Assembly (NCBI RefSeq): GCF_020423045.1
Contig: NZ_CP081943.1
Span: 806,001-870,000 of the forward strand
Direction of reading: 5' to 3'
Source: Pseudomonas sp. MM213
GTDB lineage: Bacteria > Pseudomonadota > Gammaproteobacteria > Pseudomonadales > Pseudomonadaceae
Length of the DNA stretch: 64,000 nucleotides
Shown one piece after another: positions 21,207-30,584 of this stretch; the stretch's first letter is position 1; each line of letters begins with the position of its first letter. Below the pieces are notes generated by a model that saw only the letters and a program-made list of their open reading frames with translations, made no database searches and was not told the DNA's origin. The translations under genes were made by a program, and so were the position numbers.

Positions 21207-21334
21207 GGCGCTTCCCTCTGGTCTGTCAGCGGGTGAATAGAGCGCATGGAAGACCCCTGCGAATCGGGCTCGCAGAGATTCAAACAGCGCCCGCCCACCG
21301 CGGGTTTGTTATTCAGTGAACGTAATCGTCACTT

Positions 21335-21536
21335 TGTGTTGCGGGCCGGTCTCCGGGCTCACGAGGGGCTTTGGCGTCAGCCGAAACCTGCAAGCGTCAC
21401 CTTCCCATGCCGAACTGCTGGCACAGTGGATCTGACGCTTCGCTCGCTTACCGTTGCGGGGGCAGCACCGGACTGACATGGCTTTGAGTAAAGCACATGA
21501 ATCACCGGTTTCCCGTTTCACCCTGTGAAGGGCACC
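21335..21536 (-). promoter_or_regulatory. Cobalamin riboswitch controlling cbtB-cbtA-cobE-cobM
   Basis: On the minus strand the leader opens GGTGCC...AGGGTGAAACGGGAA, contains GTGCTGCCCCCGCAACGG, GCATGGGAAGG, and ends near GAGCCCGGAGACCGGCC. These are the ordered conserved blocks of the B12 riboswitch. It lies 129 bp upstream of cbtB, so expression should fall when cobalamin is abundant. Confidence 0.93.
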
Positions 21537-21615
21537 CGTAACAAGGTGTGTAGGAGAGCATGGGCGGGGGTTGGGCGTCAATTGGCAAGGGTTCTCAACT
21601 CGGAACCGAGGTGGA

Positions 21616-21690: not shown

Positions 21691-21747
21691 GGTACGGGCG
21701 CCACAAGACATTGACCCGCCCCCACACCATGCGTAGCCTTGCGCATT

Positions 21748-21935
21748 CGAGGTTCTTCGGCGTTTGCCGGAGCTAAGAAGGGAACGCGGTCGATGCCGCG
21801 GCTGCCCCCGCAACTGTGAACGGTGATGTTCGCTGCCACGCCACTGCAAACCTGTCCAACGGGTTCGCGGAAAGGCGCAGCCAACGCCAGTCTCGCGACA
21901 GGCACACCGTCAGCCAGGAGACCTGCCTCGACACG
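21748..21935 (+). promoter_or_regulatory. Cobalamin riboswitch controlling cobW-cobN-chelatase ATPase
   Basis: Plus-strand leader with AGAAGGGAACGCGGT, CGGCTGCCCCCGCAACTG, GCCACTGCA, CGCGGAAAGGCGC and the terminal GTCAGCCAGGAGACCTGCC. The order and spacing match the cobalamin riboswitch. It ends about 105 bp before the cobW start. Confidence 0.95.
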
Positions 21936-22040
21936 AATTCTCACTACAACCGGGCGGGGTGATCCGGTGGCGAACTCTTCCGCGCGCCTGTCGCTGCGGT
22001 CGTCGTCCCGCATGCCCGCCACCTTGCCAAAGGGCATCCG

Positions 22041-23108
22041 ATGAAAACACTGGCCAAACTCCCCGTCACCATCGTTACCGGCTTCCTCGGCTCGGGCAAA
22101 ACCACCTTGCTGCGGCACATGCTCGATAACGCGCAGGGCCGCCGCATCGCGGTGATCGTCAACGAGTTCGGCGAGCTGGGCATCGACGGCGAAATCCTCA
22201 AGCAGTGCTCCATCGGTTGCACCGAAGAAGAAGCCAACGGCCGCGTCTACGAACTGGCCAACGGCTGCCTGTGCTGCACCGTCCAGGAAGAATTTTTCCC
22301 GGTGATGCGTGAACTGGTGGCCCGTCGCGGCGACCTCGATCACATTCTGATCGAAACGTCGGGCCTGGCCCTGCCAAAACCTTTGGTCCAGGCCTTCCAG
22401 TGGCCGGAAATCCGCAGCGCCTGCACCGTTGACGCGGTGATCACCGTGGTCGACAGCCCGGCCGTGGCGGCCGGCACGTTCGCCGCGTTCCCGGACCAAG
22501 TGGATGCCCAGCGCAAACTCGACCCGAACCTGGACCACGAATCGCCGCTGCACGAGCTGTTCGCCGACCAACTGGCCAGCGCCGACCTGGTGATTCTCAA
22601 CAAGGCCGACCTGATCAGCGCCGAAGACCTGGCCCGCGTACGCCTGGAAGTCGCCGAAGAACTGCCGCCCGCCGTCAAAGTCATCGAAGCCAGCAGCGGT
22701 CGCCTGCCACTGGACGTGCTGATCGGTCTCGGCGCCGGCTCCGAAGAACACATCGACAGCCGTCATAGCCACCACGATCATCACCACGACGGCGATGACC
22801 ATGACGACCACGATCACGACGCGTTCGACTCCATTTCCATCGAACTGCCACAAGCCGACGAAAGCCTGTTGATGGACGCGCTGACGCAATTGGTGGTCAA
22901 GCACGGCATCCTGCGGGTCAAGGGTTTCGCGGCGATCCCGAACAAGCCGATGCGTCTGTTGATCCAGGGCGTGGGCACGCGTTTCGACAAGCATTTCGAC
23001 CGTCAGTGGGGCGCCGACGAAGCGCGCACCACGCGTCTGGTGCTGATCGGCCAGGCGCTCGACGCCGCGCAACTCGAAGCGCAATTGCGCGCCGCGCTCA
23101 GCGTTTAA
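22041..23108 (+). CDS. cobW: Cobalamin biosynthesis GTPase CobW
   Basis: A G3E-family P-loop GTPase proposed to chaperone cobalt to the chelatase. The 355 residues show the Walker A GFLGSGKTT (residues 14-22), the metal motif NGCLCCTV (CxCC), LIETSGLA, the guanine motif NKAD, and a long His/Asp-rich loop (HSHHDHHHDGDDHDDHDHD, about residues 239-260) that probably binds metal. A C-terminal CobW_C domain follows. cobN begins 3 bp after its stop, so the two are co-transcribed behind the B12 riboswitch. Confidence 0.95.
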   Translation: MKTLAKLPVTIVTGFLGSGKTTLLRHMLDNAQGRRIAVIVNEFGELGIDGEILKQCSIGCTEEEANGRVYELANGCLCCTVQEEFFPVMRELVARRGDLDHILIETSGLALPKPLVQAFQWPEIRSACTVDAVITVVDSPAVAAGTFAAFPDQVDAQRKLDPNLDHESPLHELFADQLASADLVILNKADLISAEDLARVRLEVAEELPPAVKVIEASSGRLPLDVLIGLGAGSEEHIDSRHSHHDHHHDGDDHDDHDHDAFDSISIELPQADESLLMDALTQLVVKHGILRVKGFAAIPNKPMRLLIQGVGTRFDKHFDRQWGADEARTTRLVLIGQALDAAQLEAQLRAALSV

Positions 23109-23111
23109 CCC

Positions 23112-26100
23112 ATGCACCTGCTCAGGACCCAGCCCGGCGGTTTCGTCTCGGATGACAACATTGCCGACCTTGGACAAACCCCTGCCGAGCTGGTGATCCT
23201 GTGCAGCGGCGATTCCAGCCTCGCGCTGCTCGCCGAAGCCGCGCAACAGTTGCCGGACGATTACCCGAGCGTGCGTCTGGCCAACCCGATGCAGGTGCAG
23301 AACCACGCCTCGGTCGATTTGTATGTCGACGAAGTGCTGCGCCACGCCAAGGTGATTCTGATCTCGCTGCACGGCGGCATTGCGTATTGGCGTTACGGCG
23401 TCGAGCGGTTGGTCGAGCTCTCACAGCGCGGCGTGCAACTGATTCTGGTGCCCGGCGATGATCGCCCGGACCCGGAACTCAGCGACCTGAGCACGGTGGT
23501 TGCCGAAGACCGCGACCGGCTTTGGCATTACTTGCGTCAGGGCGGCATGGCCAACGCGCTCGATCTGTTTCGCTGCCTGGCCAATCGCTGGCTGGAGCGC
23601 GACTACAAGTGGGCCGAACCGCAAACCCTGCCACGCACAGCGATTTACCATCCACAAAAAAGTCCCGCTGCACTGCAGGATTGGCAAGCCGACTGGCAGG
23701 CCGGTCAACCGGTGGCGGCGGTGCTGTTTTACCGCTCGCATTTGCAGGCGGCGAACACCGCGTTCATTGATGTTTTCTGCCAGCGTTTGCAAGCGGCGGG
23801 GTTGAATCCCTTGCCGATTGCCGTGGCCAGTCTCAAAGAGCCCGGCTGCCTCTCGGTGGTCGAGGACTGGCTGGATGACGTCGAAGCCTCGGTGATCCTC
23901 AACACCACCGGTTTCGCCCAATCCAGCCCCGAAGCGCCGCACTTGCGACCGTTTCGACGCAATATCCCGGTGATCCAGGCCATCTGCGCCCAGGACAACG
24001 AACCCGGTTGGCGTGCCAGCGAGCAAGGCCTCGGCCCGCGGGATCTGGCGATGCACATCGCGTTGCCGGAGCTGGACGGGCGGATCATCAGTCGCCCGAT
24101 CAGCTTCAAGGACCTGGCGTGGCGCAGCGAACGCAGTCAGTCCGACGTGGTGTGCTATCGACCACAACCGGAACGCATGGATTTTGTCGCCGAACTGGCG
24201 CGGCGCTGGATCGATCTGGCGCGGGTACCGAACAGCGAAAAACGCATCGCCCTGATCCTCGCCAACTACCCGACCCGCGACGGGCGCATCGGCAACGGTG
24301 TGGGCCTCGACACACCGGCTGCTGCACTGAATATTCTGCGTGCGCTGCATCAAGAAGGTTACCCGCTGCCGGCCGAACTGCCGGGCAGCGGCACCGAACT
24401 GATCCAGCAATTGCTCGGCGGCGTCAGCAATGACCTCGACACCCTCGACCAGCGCCCGTGCCAGCAAAGCCTCGCGCTGGATGATTACAACCTGATGTTC
24501 AACGCCTTGCCCGAGGCTAATCGCCAGGCAGTGCTGGAACGTTGGGGCACCGCGCAAAACGATCCGATGTTCCGTGACGGGCGAATGATGATCGCCGGCC
24601 TGCGTTTCGGCCTGACCTTCGTCGGCATTCAACCGGCGCGCGGTTATCAGGTGGACCCGAGCGCGGTCTATCACGACCCGGACCTGGTACCGCCCCACGG
24701 TTATCTGGCGTTCTATTTCTGGTTGCGCAACACCTACGGCGCCCACGGCCTGATCCACGTCGGCAAGCACGGCAACCTCGAATGGCTGCCGGGCAAAGGT
24801 GTCGGACTGTCCGAGCATTGCTGGCCGGACGCATTGCTCGGACCGCTGCCGAACATCTATCCGTTCATCGTCAACGATCCGGGCGAGGGCGCCCAGGCCA
24901 AGCGCCGCACGCAAGCGGTGATCATCGATCACCTGATGCCACCGCTGACCCGCGCCGAAACCTACGGCCCGCTGCGCAACCTCGAACTGCTCGCCGACGA
25001 GTATTACGAAGCGCAATTGCTTGACCCGCGCCGCGCCCGTGAATTGCAGCGCGACATTCTGCAATTGGTGCGCGACACGCACATCGACCGTGAGCTGCAA
25101 CTGGACGAGAAGCTCGACAGCGACGCCGATGCAGCGATCTGGTTACCGCGCCTGGACACGTATTTGTGCGATCTGAAGGAGTCGCAGATCCGCGATGGGC
25201 TGCACATCTTTGGTGAATCGCCGACCGGGCGTCTGCGCATCGACACGTTGTTGGCTTTGTTGAGGATTCCACGGGGCGATGGCCGTGGCGCGCAGTCGAG
25301 TTTGCTGCGGGCGTTGGCCAAGGCGTTTGGTTTGGGCTTTGATCCGCTGGATTGCGCGTTGGCTGAGCCTTGGGTTGGGCCGCGACCGATTGAACTGCAA
25401 TCTGTCAGCGACGAAGCCTGGCGAACTGCCGGCGATACCCGCGAACGCCTCGAACTGTTCGCCGCTCAACTGATCTCGCAAGTTCTCGATACCTGTGGGA
25501 GCGAGCCTGCTCGCGATGGAGTGTCAGCCACATTGGTGTCGACTGACACACCATCGCGAGCAGGCTCGCTCCCACAGGGGTCGGGGTGGTCTGATGTGAG
25601 CGCCATCCTCGACAACCTGCGCGAAGTCGTTGCGCCAAGGCTCGACGCCTGCGGTCCGGCGGAAATGCGCGGCTTGCTCGACGCCCTCAGCGGTCGTTTC
25701 GTCCCCGCCGGCCCCAGCGGCGCGCCGAGTCGCGGGCGGCTGGACGTGCTGCCGACCGGACGCAATTTCTATTCGGTGGACGTGCGCAACCTGCCGACCA
25801 CCACCGCATGGCGCATCGGTTTTCAATCGGCAGAACCTGATTCTCGAGCGGCACTTGCAGGACCACGGCGATCACCTGCGTCAGCTCGGCCTGTCGGTCT
25901 GGGGCACCGCGACCATGCGCACCGGCGGCGACGACATCGCGCAAGCCATGGCGCTGATGGGCGTGCGCCCGGTCTGGGCGACGGGCAGTCAGCGGGTCGA
26001 TGACTTCGAAATTCTGCCGCTGAGCCTGCTCGACCGCCCACGCGTGGACGTGACCTTGCGCGTGTCCGGGTTCTTCCGTGATGCCTTTGCCAATCTGATC

Positions 26101-26952
26101 CGCCTGTTCGATGCGGCGGTGCAGGCAGTCGCTGCGCTGGATGAACCGGACGATCTCAATCCATTGGCGGCCAAGGTCCGCGCCGAACGCGAGGCGCTGC
26201 TGCAATCGGGCCTTGATGAAGAAGCGGCCAAACGGCAGGCCGGTTGGCGCATCTTCGGCGCCAAACCCGGTGCTTACGGTGCTGGCGTGCAAGGGGCAAT
26301 CGATGGTCGTTTGTGGCAGAGCCGCGAGGACCTGACCGAGGTTTACCTCAACTGGGGCGGCTACGCTTACGGCGGTGCCGACGAAGGCACGGCGGCCCGC
26401 GAGCAGTTCGCCCAGCGCCTGAGCCAGGTTCAGGCCGTGCTGCAGAATCAGGACAACCGCGAGCATGATTTGCTCGACTCCAATGACTATTACCAGTTCC
26501 AGGGCGGTATGCTCGCGGCCGTGGAAAGCCTCAGCGGTGCAGCGGCTGCCAGTTACCATGGCGACCACAGCCAACCGGACTTGCCGAAAATCCGTACGCT
26601 GAAGGAAGAACTGAACCGGGTCATCCGCTCGCGGGCGGCGAATCCGAAGTGGATCGACGGCGTGAAGCGCCACGGCTACAAAGGTGCGTTTGAACTGGCG
26701 GCGACGGTCGATAACCTGTTCGCGTTCGACGCGACGACGCAGTTGATCGACGATCACCAATACGCGTTGCTGGCCGATGCGTATTTGCTGGACCCGGCGA
26801 CCCGGGATTTTGTCCGCGAGCACAATCCCCATGCGTTGCGCGACATGACGGAGCGGATGCTGGAAGCGCAGCAGCGCGGGATGTGGCAAGAGCCGGGCGC
26901 CTATAAAGAAGCACTGGAAAACCTGCTGCTGGACATAGAAGAAGACACCTGA
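23112..26952 (+). CDS. cobN: Cobaltochelatase large subunit CobN, interrupted by a one-base frameshift
   Basis: CobN binds hydrogenobyrinate a,c-diamide and, with its ATPase partners, inserts cobalt. Family blocks such as ALILANYPTRDGRIGNGVGLD, HVGKHGNLEWLPGKGVGLS and YGGADEGTAAREQ are present. The frame from 23112 is coherent to about 25832 (RIGFQSA), then turns to nonsense. From 25834 the +1 frame resumes NLILERHLQDHGDH and runs to 26952. Dropping one G at 25833 restores a product of about 1280 residues. The gene also contains an 87-bp REP pair in frame (25492-25578), translated as SEPARDG...SRAGSLPQG. Without the frameshift repair, the product would end at 26003 as a 963-residue protein lacking the C-terminal quarter. 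The shift could be a sequencing error or a real mutation. Confidence 0.9.
25492..25578. repeat. REP pair inserted in frame within cobN
   Basis: Two perfect 28-nt inverted arms (25492-25519 and 25551-25578, core GTGGGAGCGAGCCTGCTCGC) span 87 nt, exactly 29 codons. The translation is open and adds a basic, proline/glycine-rich segment between QLISQVL and VSAILDNLREVV. Confidence 0.9.
25833..25833 (+). other. cobN: Frameshift position in cobN (extra G)
   Basis: CAA TCG GCA | G | AAC CTG ATT CTC: removing the G gives QSANLILERH, which joins two otherwise continuous CobN halves. The exact base could be any that restores the frame within a few nucleotides. Confidence 0.75.
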
Positions 26953-26966
26953 CACACCGTAGATCC

Positions 26967-27063
26967 CCTGTAGGAGTGAGCCTGCTCGCGATAGCGTTGG
27001 GTCAGTCAATGTTGATTTGCCTGACACACCGCTATCGCCGGCAAGCCGGTCTCGCTCCCACAG
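26967..27063. repeat. REP pair between cobN and the chelatase ATPase gene
   Basis: Inverted REP copies (26967-26992, GTAGGAGTGAGCCTGCTCGC, and 27035-27063) fill most of the 148-bp gap in the operon. Confidence 0.88.
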
Positions 27064-27100: not shown

Positions 27101-28099
27101 ATGACCGACACCCCGCATTTCCCCTTATCCGCCGTGGTCGGCGCCGACGATCTCAAACTCGCTTTGTACCTCACCGCCATCGACCCGAAAATCGGCGGCG
27201 TGCTGATCGAAGGTCCACGCGGCATGGCCAAATCCACCCTGGCCCGAGGCCTCGCGGACCTGCTCGCCAGCGGTCAGTTCGTCACCTTGCCGCTGGGTGC
27301 CACTGAAGAACGCCTGGTCGGCACCCTCGACCTTGACGCCGCCCTGAGCGAAGGTCGTGCGCAGTTTTCGCCCGGCGTACTGGCCAAGGCTGACGGCGGC
27401 GTGCTCTACGTCGATGAAGTCAATCTGCTGCCCGATCACCTGGTGGACTTGCTGCTCGACGTCGCCGCCAGCGGCACCAACCTGATCGAGCGTGACGGCA
27501 TTTCCCATCGGCATTCGGCAAAGTTCGTGTTGATCGGCACCATGAATCCGGAAGAGGGCGAGTTGCGTCCGCAACTGCTCGACCGCTTTGGCCTGAACGT
27601 CGCCCTCAGCGGTCATACCGCACCCGCCCAGCGTGGGCAGATCATCCGTCGGCGGCTGGATTTCGACAGCGATCCGCAACGCTTCTGCGCCGAGTGGGAA
27701 AGCCAGCAGCAGTCTTTGCGTGAGCGTTGCCAGACAGCGCGCAGCACACTGGCGAGCATCCCCCTGGACGATGAGGCGCTGGCACAGATTACCGAGCGCT
27801 GTTTCGCCGCCGGTGTCGATGGGCTGCGCGCTGACCTGGTCTGGCTGCGTGCCGCCCGTGCCCATGCGGCGTGGCGGGGGGCGAGCGCCATTGCCGAGGA
27901 AGATATCGATGCCGTTGCCGAGTTCGCCTTGCGCCATCGTCGTCGCGAACAGTCGCCATCGGCGCCGCAACAGGCCCGGCAATCCGCGCCGCAACCATCC
28001 AGCCCGAGCGAAGGTCAGGGCCAATGGGGCGAAATGCCGGCGCAGGCGCTGCCGGTCGGTGCTCGACGTGAAGTGCCGAGCTGGCCAAAAAAGCCCTAG
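27101..28099 (+). CDS. Chelatase AAA+ ATPase small subunit (ChlI/BchI-type), zero-frame product
   Basis: A 332-residue MgCl-chelatase I-type AAA+ ATPase. Motifs: Walker A in IEGPRGMAKSTLARGLADLL, Walker B in GVLYVDEVNLL, sensor 1 in VLIGTMNPEEGELRPQLLDRFGLNV, and the sensor 2/C-terminal helices. A proline/glutamine-rich tail precedes the stop TAG at 28097-28099. ATG at 27101 is chosen; upstream TTG 27095 is unlikely. Next to cobW-cobN it probably supplies ATP hydrolysis for cobalt insertion in place of CobS. Its last codons lie on a slippery sequence (see 28087-28134), so it is probably the shorter of two products. Confidence 0.88.
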   Translation: MTDTPHFPLSAVVGADDLKLALYLTAIDPKIGGVLIEGPRGMAKSTLARGLADLLASGQFVTLPLGATEERLVGTLDLDAALSEGRAQFSPGVLAKADGGVLYVDEVNLLPDHLVDLLLDVAASGTNLIERDGISHRHSAKFVLIGTMNPEEGELRPQLLDRFGLNVALSGHTAPAQRGQIIRRRLDFDSDPQRFCAEWESQQQSLRERCQTARSTLASIPLDDEALAQITERCFAAGVDGLRADLVWLRAARAHAAWRGASAIAEEDIDAVAEFALRHRRREQSPSAPQQARQSAPQPSSPSEGQGQWGEMPAQALPVGARREVPSWPKKP

Positions 28100-28764
28100 G
28101 CATTCGCCCTCGATCTGACGCGGGGGCGAATGCCAGGCCCCGCGCCGGACGGCTGGACCACGGCAAGCAGGGTAAGCGTCATGCCGCCCGCAGCGGCTCG
28201 ATCAATTGGCCCGGCACCTTGCTCAACGGCCGCCCGCGCCAACGCCAGGATGTGCTGTTTCAATTGCGCACCCGTTCGCCCCATGAACTGTGGCTGGTGA
28301 TCGTCGACGCCTCGGCCTCGACGCGCCGACACCAGGCCTTGAGCGACGCCAAGGGGCTATTGGCGCAGTTGTTCGACGACGCTTACCGCCAACGTGCGCA
28401 CCTGGCGCTGCTGACGGCCAGCGGCCATGCGCCGAAGTGGCAAGTGCAAGGATTGAAAGCTTCCAGCGGGTTGCGCCACTGGCTCGATGGCCTTGGCGCG
28501 GGCGGCGGTACGCCGTTGCTGGCGGCACTGGGCGAAGCGGGGCGATGGCTCGCGGTCCGGCAAAAACGCTTTCCGGCGGAGCAGCAACGGTTGTTGCTGG
28601 TGACCGATGGCCGGTTGAAGGAGTGGTCGGGGTTGCCGGCGCTGGCGTGTCCGGGGCTGCTGATCGACATCGAGCGTGGACCGATCCGGCTGGGGCGGGC
28701 GCGGCAGTTGGCAGCGGAGCTGCAAACGGATTATCGGCATATTGATGAGCTGGTTTCAGGCTGA
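27101..28764 (+). CDS. Predicted -1 frameshift product: chelatase ATPase-VWA fusion (ChlD-like medium subunit)
   Basis: If the ribosome slips back one base at A AAA AAG (28087-28093), translation continues in the -1 frame to 28764 and gives about 554 residues. The fused part starts KALGIRPRSDAGANARP, passes a basic linker (GKQGKRHAARSGSINWPG) and enters a von Willebrand factor A domain with the MIDAS motif DASAS (VIVDASASTRR). ATPase plus linker plus VWA is the layout of ChlD/BchD. The VWA frame has no good independent start: between its upstream stop at 28069 and the domain there is no ATG or GTG, only a TTG at 28219 that would cut into the linker. The alternative is a separate TTG-started protein of 181 residues. 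Confidence 0.75.
28087..28134 (+). promoter_or_regulatory. Programmed -1 frameshift signal (slippery heptamer plus hairpin)
   Basis: A AAA AAG (28087-28093) is in the proper phase for tandem slippage. A 5-nt spacer (CCCTA) is followed by a perfect 11-bp stem GGCATTCGCCC/GGGCGAATGCC (28099-28109 with 28124-28134) with a 14-nt loop. The zero-frame TAG is at 28097-28099. Heptamer, spacing and stem resemble the E. coli dnaX signal. No convincing upstream SD-like enhancer was seen. Confidence 0.8.
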
Positions 28765-28787
28765 GTTTGCAGTGTCTGTGCTGGCCT

Positions 28788-28856
28788 CTTCGCGGACAAG
28801 CCTCGCTCCTACAGGGACAATGCGTAACCTGTAGGAGCGAGGCTTGCCCGCGAAGG
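28788..28856. repeat. REP pair after the chelatase gene
   Basis: Inverted copies CTTCGCGGACAAGCCTCGCT (28788 onward) and its partner ending at 28856, separated by about 15 nt. It probably stabilises or ends the cob operon transcript. Confidence 0.88.
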
Positions 28857-28937
28857 CATCACCTCGGTAACGAATACTCACGACCAATCTGCAGCGCTGC
28901 CCTATGCTCTGAAAGCAGCCATTCACAGGAGTGAAGC

Positions 28938-30584
28938 ATGCGTGTTCTAGCCACAAACAGTCAGGACGATTTCCGCGTCAAAGCCTACGCCGGCACCAAC
29001 GGCGTGCTGCTGGCCATGGACCTGGCCGAATCCCGCCGCAAGGGCCTGCTGGGTTTCGCCATCGAAAAACAGCAAGGCAGCAAACCCTGGTTGTTCCTGT
29101 TCAATAGCCTGACGTTCCCCGGCAAGGCTCATACGTTCCCGCAGTTTCACGCCACCCCAAGCGACCTCGCGCCGTTGCAGAAATTTCGCTGGGCCGATTA
29201 CGCGGTCAATCCGGGGATGACGATCCATTACCGAATCCACCTCGCCTATGGCAGCGCCGATGCACCGCAGCTGGGCGAATTTCTGGAGGTAACCGTCACG
29301 TCCGACAACGGCCTGCCGCACAATCAGAGTGTGATTTTCAACCGCGCGGTGGCCGCCAGTCAGGCATTCCAGCGCAAGTTTCCCGACCTCGACGCGTTGA
29401 TCAGCGCCAACAAGAACCTGCCCATCGAGGCCTGGCCCGATGCGCCGCGCCAGTGGCTGGAAAACGGTTTGCTCGGGCGCTTGCTGGGGTTTATCGAACG
29501 GGCGCTGGATGGTCAGTGGGCGCTGGACATTGCCATTTACGAGTACGAGTTGCAGGTGATAGTCGATGCCGTCAACGCGGCGTTCGAACGGGGTGTGAAG
29601 GTTCGCGTGCTGTATCACGCACAACCCGACGATGACGACACCGTCATCAACCAGGCCAGCCTGGAAAAAATCCCGGCGGCGAACAAGCGCGGGCGTGTCA
29701 CTCACAATATCTTCCACAACAAATTCATGGTGCTGAGCCAGGTTGATGCCGCCGGGCAGCTTCAGCCTGAAGCGGTGCTGTGCGGCAGCACCAACTTCAC
29801 GCCCAATGGCGTTTATCGACAGGCCAACGTGGTGCATGTGCTGGACGACGCGCGCATCAGCGCCAGCTATCTGCAGACCTTCGAGCAAGTCTGGGCGACA
29901 CCGGACGACGTCGGCGCCACCCGGCAATGGATCACGCAACACAACCCGATAGACCCGCAGCAACCGCTGTTCGCCGGGTTCTCACCGCGTTCGGGGCAGG
30001 GTGATTTGCGGGCGTTTGTCGAGATCATCAACGCCGCGAAAAAGGACGTGCTGTTTGTCACCGCGTTCGCCTTGCCCGACGACATTCTCAACGCGCTGCT
30101 CGGCCAGCCCCACGACGATATTTTGCGTTACGGCCTGCAAAACACCGCCAGTCGCATCACCGGTTTTCACGCTGATCGCAGCGCCGAATTTGCCGCGACT
30201 GCGCTGCTCAACACCGGGCTGGAAGGCTGGCTTCGAGAGAACATGAAGGGCCAGAAGGGCAATTTGCTGGTGCACACCAAAGCCGTGGTCACCGACTTCA
30301 CCAGCGACGCGCCGACGATCATCAGCGGCAGCCACAACCTCAGCGCTGCGGCCAGTAACGGCAACGACGAGAACTATCTGATCGTGCGCGGCGATACCGA
30401 TCTGGCTGATCGTTATGGTTTGGAGTTGCTGCGGTTTTACGAACATTACCGCTTTCGCTACTTCGCGAAGAAGCTTGCGCTCAAACAGGTGCAGCCGTTG
30501 AAGGTGGATGACAGCTGGACTGATGATTACTACCTGGCGGGGGATTTGCGGCAGCTGTCCAGATTGCGATTCTCCGGACGGTAA
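28938..30584 (+). CDS. Phospholipase D-like domain protein
   Basis: A 548-residue protein with two PLD-type active-site motifs: FHNKFMVL around residue 260, with CGSTNFTPNG after it, and VHTKAVVTDF around residue 445, with SGSHNLSAAASNGNDEN after it. The HxK...GS(x)N pattern in both halves indicates the pseudo-dimeric PLD fold, which cleaves or transfers phosphodiesters. The N-terminal 170 residues are a separate beta-rich domain (RVLATNSQDDFRVKAYAG). No signal peptide is present. AGGAG precedes the ATG at 28938. It stands alone between REP pairs. The substrate could be a phospholipid or nucleic acid; the sequence does not decide. Confidence 0.85.
   Translation: MRVLATNSQDDFRVKAYAGTNGVLLAMDLAESRRKGLLGFAIEKQQGSKPWLFLFNSLTFPGKAHTFPQFHATPSDLAPLQKFRWADYAVNPGMTIHYRIHLAYGSADAPQLGEFLEVTVTSDNGLPHNQSVIFNRAVAASQAFQRKFPDLDALISANKNLPIEAWPDAPRQWLENGLLGRLLGFIERALDGQWALDIAIYEYELQVIVDAVNAAFERGVKVRVLYHAQPDDDDTVINQASLEKIPAANKRGRVTHNIFHNKFMVLSQVDAAGQLQPEAVLCGSTNFTPNGVYRQANVVHVLDDARISASYLQTFEQVWATPDDVGATRQWITQHNPIDPQQPLFAGFSPRSGQGDLRAFVEIINAAKKDVLFVTAFALPDDILNALLGQPHDDILRYGLQNTASRITGFHADRSAEFAATALLNTGLEGWLRENMKGQKGNLLVHTKAVVTDFTSDAPTIISGSHNLSAAASNGNDENYLIVRGDTDLADRYGLELLRFYEHYRFRYFAKKLALKQVQPLKVDDSWTDDYYLAGDLRQLSRLRFSGR

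Follow-up and report, generated by a model that had tools for sequence, protein, structure and literature searches.

In the genome of Pseudomonas sp. MM213, an open reading frame (ORF) for an AAA+ ATPase, located behind cobN, ends at a TAG codon, and a VWA domain follows in the -1 frame, which raises the question of how the two frames are expressed and how many proteins they specify. In the current work, this question was addressed by analysis of the 64,000 nt stretch of DNA that contains the locus (hereafter “the window”, whose coordinates are used throughout), followed by comparison with related genomes. As judged from the sequences, the two frames very probably represent a case of programmed -1 ribosomal frameshifting of the fs-chlD type, by which a short and a long chelatase subunit would be obtained from a single gene. 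Such frameshifting accounts for both the split appearance of the cobaltochelatase gene and the missing small-subunit gene. The basis for this interpretation consists of the architecture of the locus, its conservation, a predicted stem, a codon freeze at the slippery heptamer and in part of the stem, and the lack of a conserved alternative start; on this basis we infer that slippage takes place in vivo at some rate, that the products assemble with CobN and that cobalt is the metal.

Table 1. Coordinates of the two-frame gene, its putative recoding signal and the genes preceding it
Feature	Position	Strand	Basis or remark
Cobalamin riboswitch, 5' of cobW-cobN-chlD	21733..21944	+	Rfam RF00174, 95.4 bits
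cobW	22041..23108	+	TIGR02475, 531.9 bits, over cut-off
cobN, 5' part (large chelatase subunit)	23112..25835	+	TIGR02257, 1102.6 bits; PF02514 positions 1-738
cobN, 3' part, other frame	25837..26952	+	PF02514 positions 739-1086
Zero-frame ORF, 332-aa AAA+ ATPase (small, ChlI-like subunit)	27101..28099	+	ATG 27101, TAG 28097-28099
Slippery heptamer A_AAA_AAG	28087..28093	+	AAAAAAG; ATPase-frame codons CCA AAA AAG
-1 frame extension, basic linker and VWA domain	28093..28764	+	223 codons and stop; PF13519, TIGR02442
5-nt spacer CCCTA	28094..28098	+	sequence reading
Zero-frame stop TAG	28097..28099	+	last base opens the stem
Predicted stimulatory stem-loop	28099..28134	+	14 pairs (28099-28112 with 28121-28134), outer 11 perfect, 8-nt loop
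MIDAS motif DASAS	28306..28320	+	sequence reading of the -1 product

Reading frames, products and partner genes

Direct reading of the window agrees with the initial annotation in that the ATPase gene ends at TAG 28097-28099 and that the -1 frame is open from 28072 (immediately preceded by TGA 28069-28071) to 28764, the extension running from GCC 28093 to TGA 28762-28764. The product lengths of 332 and 554 residues that it had given are also those obtained here (331 + 223 codons), codons 1-331 followed by the extension specifying a predicted ChlD-like subunit of ATPase-linker-VWA order. The VWA domain with MIDAS motif DASAS had been correctly placed in the -1 frame, as the extension is matched from position 28294 by the Pfam VWA_2 family (PF13519; 30.2 bits, cut-off 27). 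A DxSxS motif is present in the -1 product of all 168 loci that share the frame arrangement (see below), and a Walker A motif in the form GPxGxxK[ST] in 152 of 167 loci. The ATPase ORF scores 414.6 bits against TIGR02442 (best stretch at positions 88-333) and 337.4 bits against TIGR02030, and the extension matches TIGR02442 at positions 458-641, all three matches being under the respective whole-protein cut-offs. In addition, the ATPase matches the ChlI family, its nearest solved chains being ChlI and the 38-kDa magnesium-chelatase subunit. Because of these TIGR02442, ChlI and VWA_2 matches, the two frames appear to correspond to the two halves of a single cobaltochelatase subunit model.

CobN had been proposed as a partner encoded upstream, and the gene had been described as lying behind a B12 riboswitch; both statements hold, with CobN matches at 23112-26952 and an RF00174 match preceding cobW, cobN and the chlD-type gene. 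In this assembly, the cobN frame is broken at approximately 25836 (25835-25837) by a one-base offset. Among named relatives (the best 80 of 234), cobN runs in frame across the break point in all 77 that could be scored, the remaining three not being scorable; in L254 it occupies several frames elsewhere, and some genomes of the genus match CobN in two or three pieces. The break may be either an artefact of the assembly or a genuine loss of the strain; if genuine, the chelatase complex may not work there because its cobN is broken. The genome contains one CobN, detected as two adjacent matches in two frames. No match to CobT was found in the genome and none to CobS over the cut-off (one weak match of 28.9 bits versus a cut-off of 558.55), nor was a second close ChlI found, the next-best ATPase match being 30% identical (E = 8.8e-8). 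Therefore, a single gene for the small and medium subunits is the natural reading.

Several further features of the surroundings were noted. A second cobalamin riboswitch (21327-21554, minus strand) is situated divergently, approximately 180 bases from that on the plus strand (21733-21944), and faces genes that resemble cobalt-uptake and cobalamin genes. The cobN gene contains, at 25490-25580, a REP-like inverted repeat (GTGGGAGCGAGCCTGCTCGCGA with its complement) that keeps the reading frame, and a similar peptide insert occurs in cobN of a few relatives (L207, L210 and L212); a regular-expression scan for the insert returned a parse in 10 of 81 rows, the other 71 rows not being informative. 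Similar repeats were seen by eye in the intergenic stretches at around 26965-27060 and 28780-28860. Downstream, positions 28938-30584 encode an apparently unrelated 548-aa protein with PLD-like domains (PF13091).

The slippery site and the stem-loop among relatives

The VWA protein was matched in 234 of 249 genomes of the genus and CobN in 239 of these 249, while a search at family level matched 85 of 148 genomes. From these, 178 loci were assembled (30 from the genus VWA search, 120 fetched stretches and 28 from the family search), of which seven were dropped as the ATPase or the VWA part was missing from the stretch (L136, L139, L141, L142, L143, L149 and L155), leaving a final set of 171 Pseudomonadaceae loci in which genomes G168, G188 and G234 are each entered twice. 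The named contigs, being the best 80 of 234, overlap with the set of genus genomes.

The sequence AAAAAAG is by itself unremarkable, with seven occurrences in the window versus 5.98 expected. What goes beyond chance is the phase of the heptamer, its position just before the stop, the stability of the fold that follows and its recurrence: A_AAA_AAG, which the initial annotation had placed in the correct phase at the junction, is in phase in 168 of the 171 loci, the VWA frame being at -1 in each of them. The alignment of homologues that had been suggested as a check is thus favourable with regard to the heptamer, which is also present, together with TAG, in all 80 named closest relatives (best 80 of 234). 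The run preceding the G comprises six A’s in the window and in 165 of the 168 loci, and seven in the other three. The zero-frame stop starts 3 nt after the heptamer in 165 loci, directly after it in one (0 nt; L064) and 21 nt after it in two, which places it within 3 nt in 166 of 168; it is TAG in 130, TGA in 35 and TAA in 3. In the two loci with the distant stop (L108 and L111), CAG replaces the usual stop codon, the heptamer is retained and the next zero-frame stop is located in the loop region. As determined by a similarity search of the genome, as distinct from a full tRNA scan, the two best tRNA-Lys matches both carry the anticodon UUU, the only Lys kind found.

The three exceptions are L054 and L056, each with a run of five A’s, and L072, in which the heptamer is kept and another indel is present in the ATPase. 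In L054 (G034) and L056 (G216), the heptamer is lost in these assemblies because the run contains five rather than six A’s, which reflects either a homopolymer error or a real change. An in-frame call that would make L054 a fusion was rejected, the ATPase match being partial and the A run one short; as cobN of G034 is also in two pieces, these features fit indels in that assembly. Long frames covering the VWA part in some genomes (e.g. of 565 codons) had similarly suggested fused genes, and in L169, L173 and L177 turned out to be long -1 overlaps in which the heptamer is kept. A class-level search with TIGR02442 (E up to 1e-20) gave matches in 17 of 274 genomes. A scan of nine class loci for A runs identified runs of 10, 7, 7 and 6 in L277, L280, L281 and L282, respectively, with a stop 10-13 nt from the start of the run and a long -1 frame, a pattern absent from the other five (L275, L278, L279, L283 and L284). 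From match coordinates alone, most or all of TIGR02442 is matched in one frame in L268, L269 and L275, and five class genomes contain two separate matches, the first halves being L270-L274.

Synonymous heterozygosity was scored among sequences sharing the residue, and compared to gene means per residue that include the codons in question. The two Lys codons of the heptamer yielded values of 0.00 and 0.02 (gene mean 0.15), and the Ala codon immediately following the Lys pair a value of 0.04 (0.49). Within the stem, Gly GGC (0.00; mean 0.56), Ala GCG (0.01; 0.49) and Asn AAT (0.00; 0.32) are frozen and Arg CGC is at 0.14 (0.61), whereas codons for Ile (0.47; 0.35), Pro (0.63; 0.44) and another Arg (0.61; 0.61) are not. 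The expectation that synonymous sites would vary less than usual was therefore borne out for the heptamer and for some of the stem codons, which are near-invariant, but not for the other stem codons, which vary freely. Upstream of the heptamer, AGC (0.02 versus 0.45) and CCA (0.09 versus 0.51), whose last base doubles as the first A of the heptamer, vary unusually little, and another upstream role is therefore possible. The 20 nt upstream contain no conspicuous Shine-Dalgarno-like stimulator: the duplex with the 16S 3' end is at -3.70 kcal/mol in the window and at -3.63 kcal/mol on average over the 168 loci, versus -2.79 kcal/mol (sd 2.12) in controls, the junction median being reached by 572 of 2341 control stretches.

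Reading also bore out a spacer of 5 nt followed by a perfect 11-bp stem: GGCATTCGCCC (28099-28109) is the exact reverse complement of GGGCGAATGCC (28124-28134), and three further pairs (28110-28112 with 28121-28123, one being U.G) bring the total to 14. The segment 28087-28150 has a predicted folding energy of -34.6 kcal/mol (z = -4.06; equalled in stability by 1 of 200 shuffles), the predicted fold additionally pairing 28093-28095 with bases just 3' of the stem. The mean for the junction fold is -28.4 kcal/mol (n = 168) versus -15.8 kcal/mol for 4689 controls taken from these loci, the junction median being reached by 35 of them, although the fold is weaker and interrupted in L144, L146, L153 and L154. 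The C-rich 5' arm and the G-rich 3' arm are kept in most of the loci compared. Counted over 153 distinct 62-base sequences, with a register taken from one of them that introduces some bias in its favour, standard pairing at the 14 positions extends to 91.3% of cells, compared to 32.6-52.1% if one arm is shifted by 1-3 positions. The predicted start of the stem is less uniform, the first paired base in free folding being 5 or 6 nt after the heptamer in just 60 of 168 loci and nearer in 108, since free folding adds pairs in the spacer.

Pairing is weakest at the outermost position (113 of 153 sequences) and at the three innermost ones (124-125 of 153), and pair 28104-28129 is U-A in 67, C-G in 57 and U-G in 24 of the 153 sequences. 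On a tree of 167 loci built without the junction, parsimony assigned to the stem 10 two-sided pair-preserving, 63 one-sided, 43 pair-breaking, 34 pair-restoring and 23 unpaired-to-unpaired changes, the slid controls giving 2-6, 26-59, 25-57, 30-47 and 55-94, respectively. One-sided and pair-breaking counts do not separate the stem from these controls; covariation on the tree is modest to weak, only the two-sided excess and the small number of unpaired-to-unpaired changes standing out.

Production of the VWA protein

In the proposed mechanism, ribosomes that keep the frame would stop at TAG 28097 and release the ATPase, being the small subunit, while a fraction of ribosomes would meet the stem-loop and slip back one base on A_AAA_AAG through re-pairing of two tRNA-Lys. 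The latter ribosomes would read on to produce the 554-aa ATPase-linker-VWA protein, being the medium, ChlD-like subunit, and both subunits would assemble with CobN to form an aerobic cobalt chelatase.

Alternatively, the locus may consist of two overlapping genes, the VWA protein being translated without slippage by coupled re-initiation or from an internal start (TTG 28219, GTG 28252 or GTG 28297), which we consider unlikely. Between the junction and the MIDAS motif, the -1 frame contains these three codons and TTG 28264, and no ATG. The initial annotation had stated that neither ATG nor GTG precedes the VWA domain, which is correct for ATG, and a conserved start is indeed lacking, but GTG 28252 does precede the Pfam match, GTG 28297 being located inside it. 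Two of the columns are frequently occupied by a possible start (TTG at 28219 in 111 and GTG at 28297 in 145 of 168 loci), and every one of the 168 loci contains some ATG, GTG or TTG before the MIDAS motif, just four being without ATG or GTG. However, no start-codon column is universal among the 168 loci: position 28252 is GTG in only 19 and TTG in 16, and position 28219 is otherwise mostly CTG, TTA or CTC, with 55 of the 166 loci that keep Leu employing CTG, TTA, CTC, CTA or CTT, while a protein initiated at GTG 28297 would start within the Pfam VWA match. Moreover, a separate start leaves the conserved heptamer, its codon freeze and the stem unexplained. If the frameshift interpretation is true, it would be wrong to annotate a separate VWA gene that starts at TTG 28219.

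Transcriptional slippage on the A run, in place of ribosomal frameshifting, is less likely still. The run is placed where such slippage would require it, reaching seven A’s in 3 of 168 loci and ten in L277, which belongs to another family of the class. A conserved RNA stem at such a position is typical of ribosomal frameshifting, and the presence of one here argues against slippage during transcription. Furthermore, the six A’s of the window and of 165 of 168 loci are below the An with n > 7 for which transcriptional realignment is given in PMC3711429. Finally, a recent frameshift mutation or a sequencing error in an ordinary fused chlD gene, a notion to which the frame-broken cobN of the same assembly might lend itself, has a negligible probability and is refuted by the comparison, as the frame relation recurs in 168 of the 171 loci and the site in all 80 of the named ones (best 80 of 234).

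Comparison with known recoding systems

Genes of the fs-chlD type make up the ‘magnesium chelatase’ frameshift cluster, which was reportedly also treated by Antonov in 2020. The statement in the initial annotation that frameshifting had been reported in chlD-type genes is correct according to PMC3711429, PMC5009743 and PMC9227772, and most of the novelty is thereby removed. Antonov 2013 groups 23 fs-genes, Pseudomonas included, in a magnesium-chelatase cluster characterised by -1 frameshifts, with reporter cassettes of three members yielding 63, 40 and 10% frameshifting in E. coli for A runs of 11, 9 and 7, respectively (PMC3711429). Kuznetsov 2022 describes fs-chlD for cobalt chelatase (PMC9227772). 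A 2016 review names Pseudomonas, reports the A_AAA_AAR site to be under purifying selection, prints the P. protegens stem, describes sequence conservation of the structure as not strong, and suggests that it might form a triplex or bind divalent cations (PMC5009743). That the stem senses a divalent metal or another ligand, in which case the ratio of small to medium subunit would follow cobalt or cobalamin status, appears improbable to us.

The locus displays the features of fs-chlD genes: a ChlI-like ATPase ORF followed by a VWA ORF in another frame, a conserved in-phase A-rich slippery site at their overlap (168/171 loci; 80/80 among the best 80 of 234 named), a predicted and retained downstream RNA structure as putative stimulator, and a cobN gene (frame-broken here) in a genome where no separate small-subunit gene was found. 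As described in PMC3711429 and PMC9227772, ATPase and VWA ORFs are joined in these genes by -1 frameshifting at an A-rich site, and the small and medium chelatase subunits thus obtained from one gene are used with cobN. In contrast to the cassettes of 2013, with 7, 9 or 11 A’s, the window carries A_AAA_AAG (PMC3711429). It shares A_AAA_AAR with the P. protegens site, the printed stem of which (CTAGGCATCCGCCCCCG...CGGGGGGCGGATGCC) matches that of the window in position and design, while a few stem and loop bases differ, the changes in the stem keeping the pairing as judged by eye (PMC5009743).

The signal had been called dnaX-like, an apt description as far as the A_AAA_AAG heptamer, the closely following 3' hairpin and the proposed production of two subunits from one gene are concerned. 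According to PMC3711429, frameshifting in E. coli dnaX yields the short product, whereas here the shift would yield the longer one. The upstream Shine-Dalgarno-like stimulator of dnaX is also without a clear counterpart in the window. Given a published cluster that includes Pseudomonas and a near-identical P. protegens stem, the locus is a well-supported example of a mechanism already described, in a genus for which it is known. The frameshift device is sound but already in print for Pseudomonas, and the current work adds breadth and numbers, for which no priority is claimed, in the form of a broad set of loci with which to compare a recoding signal that is already in the literature.
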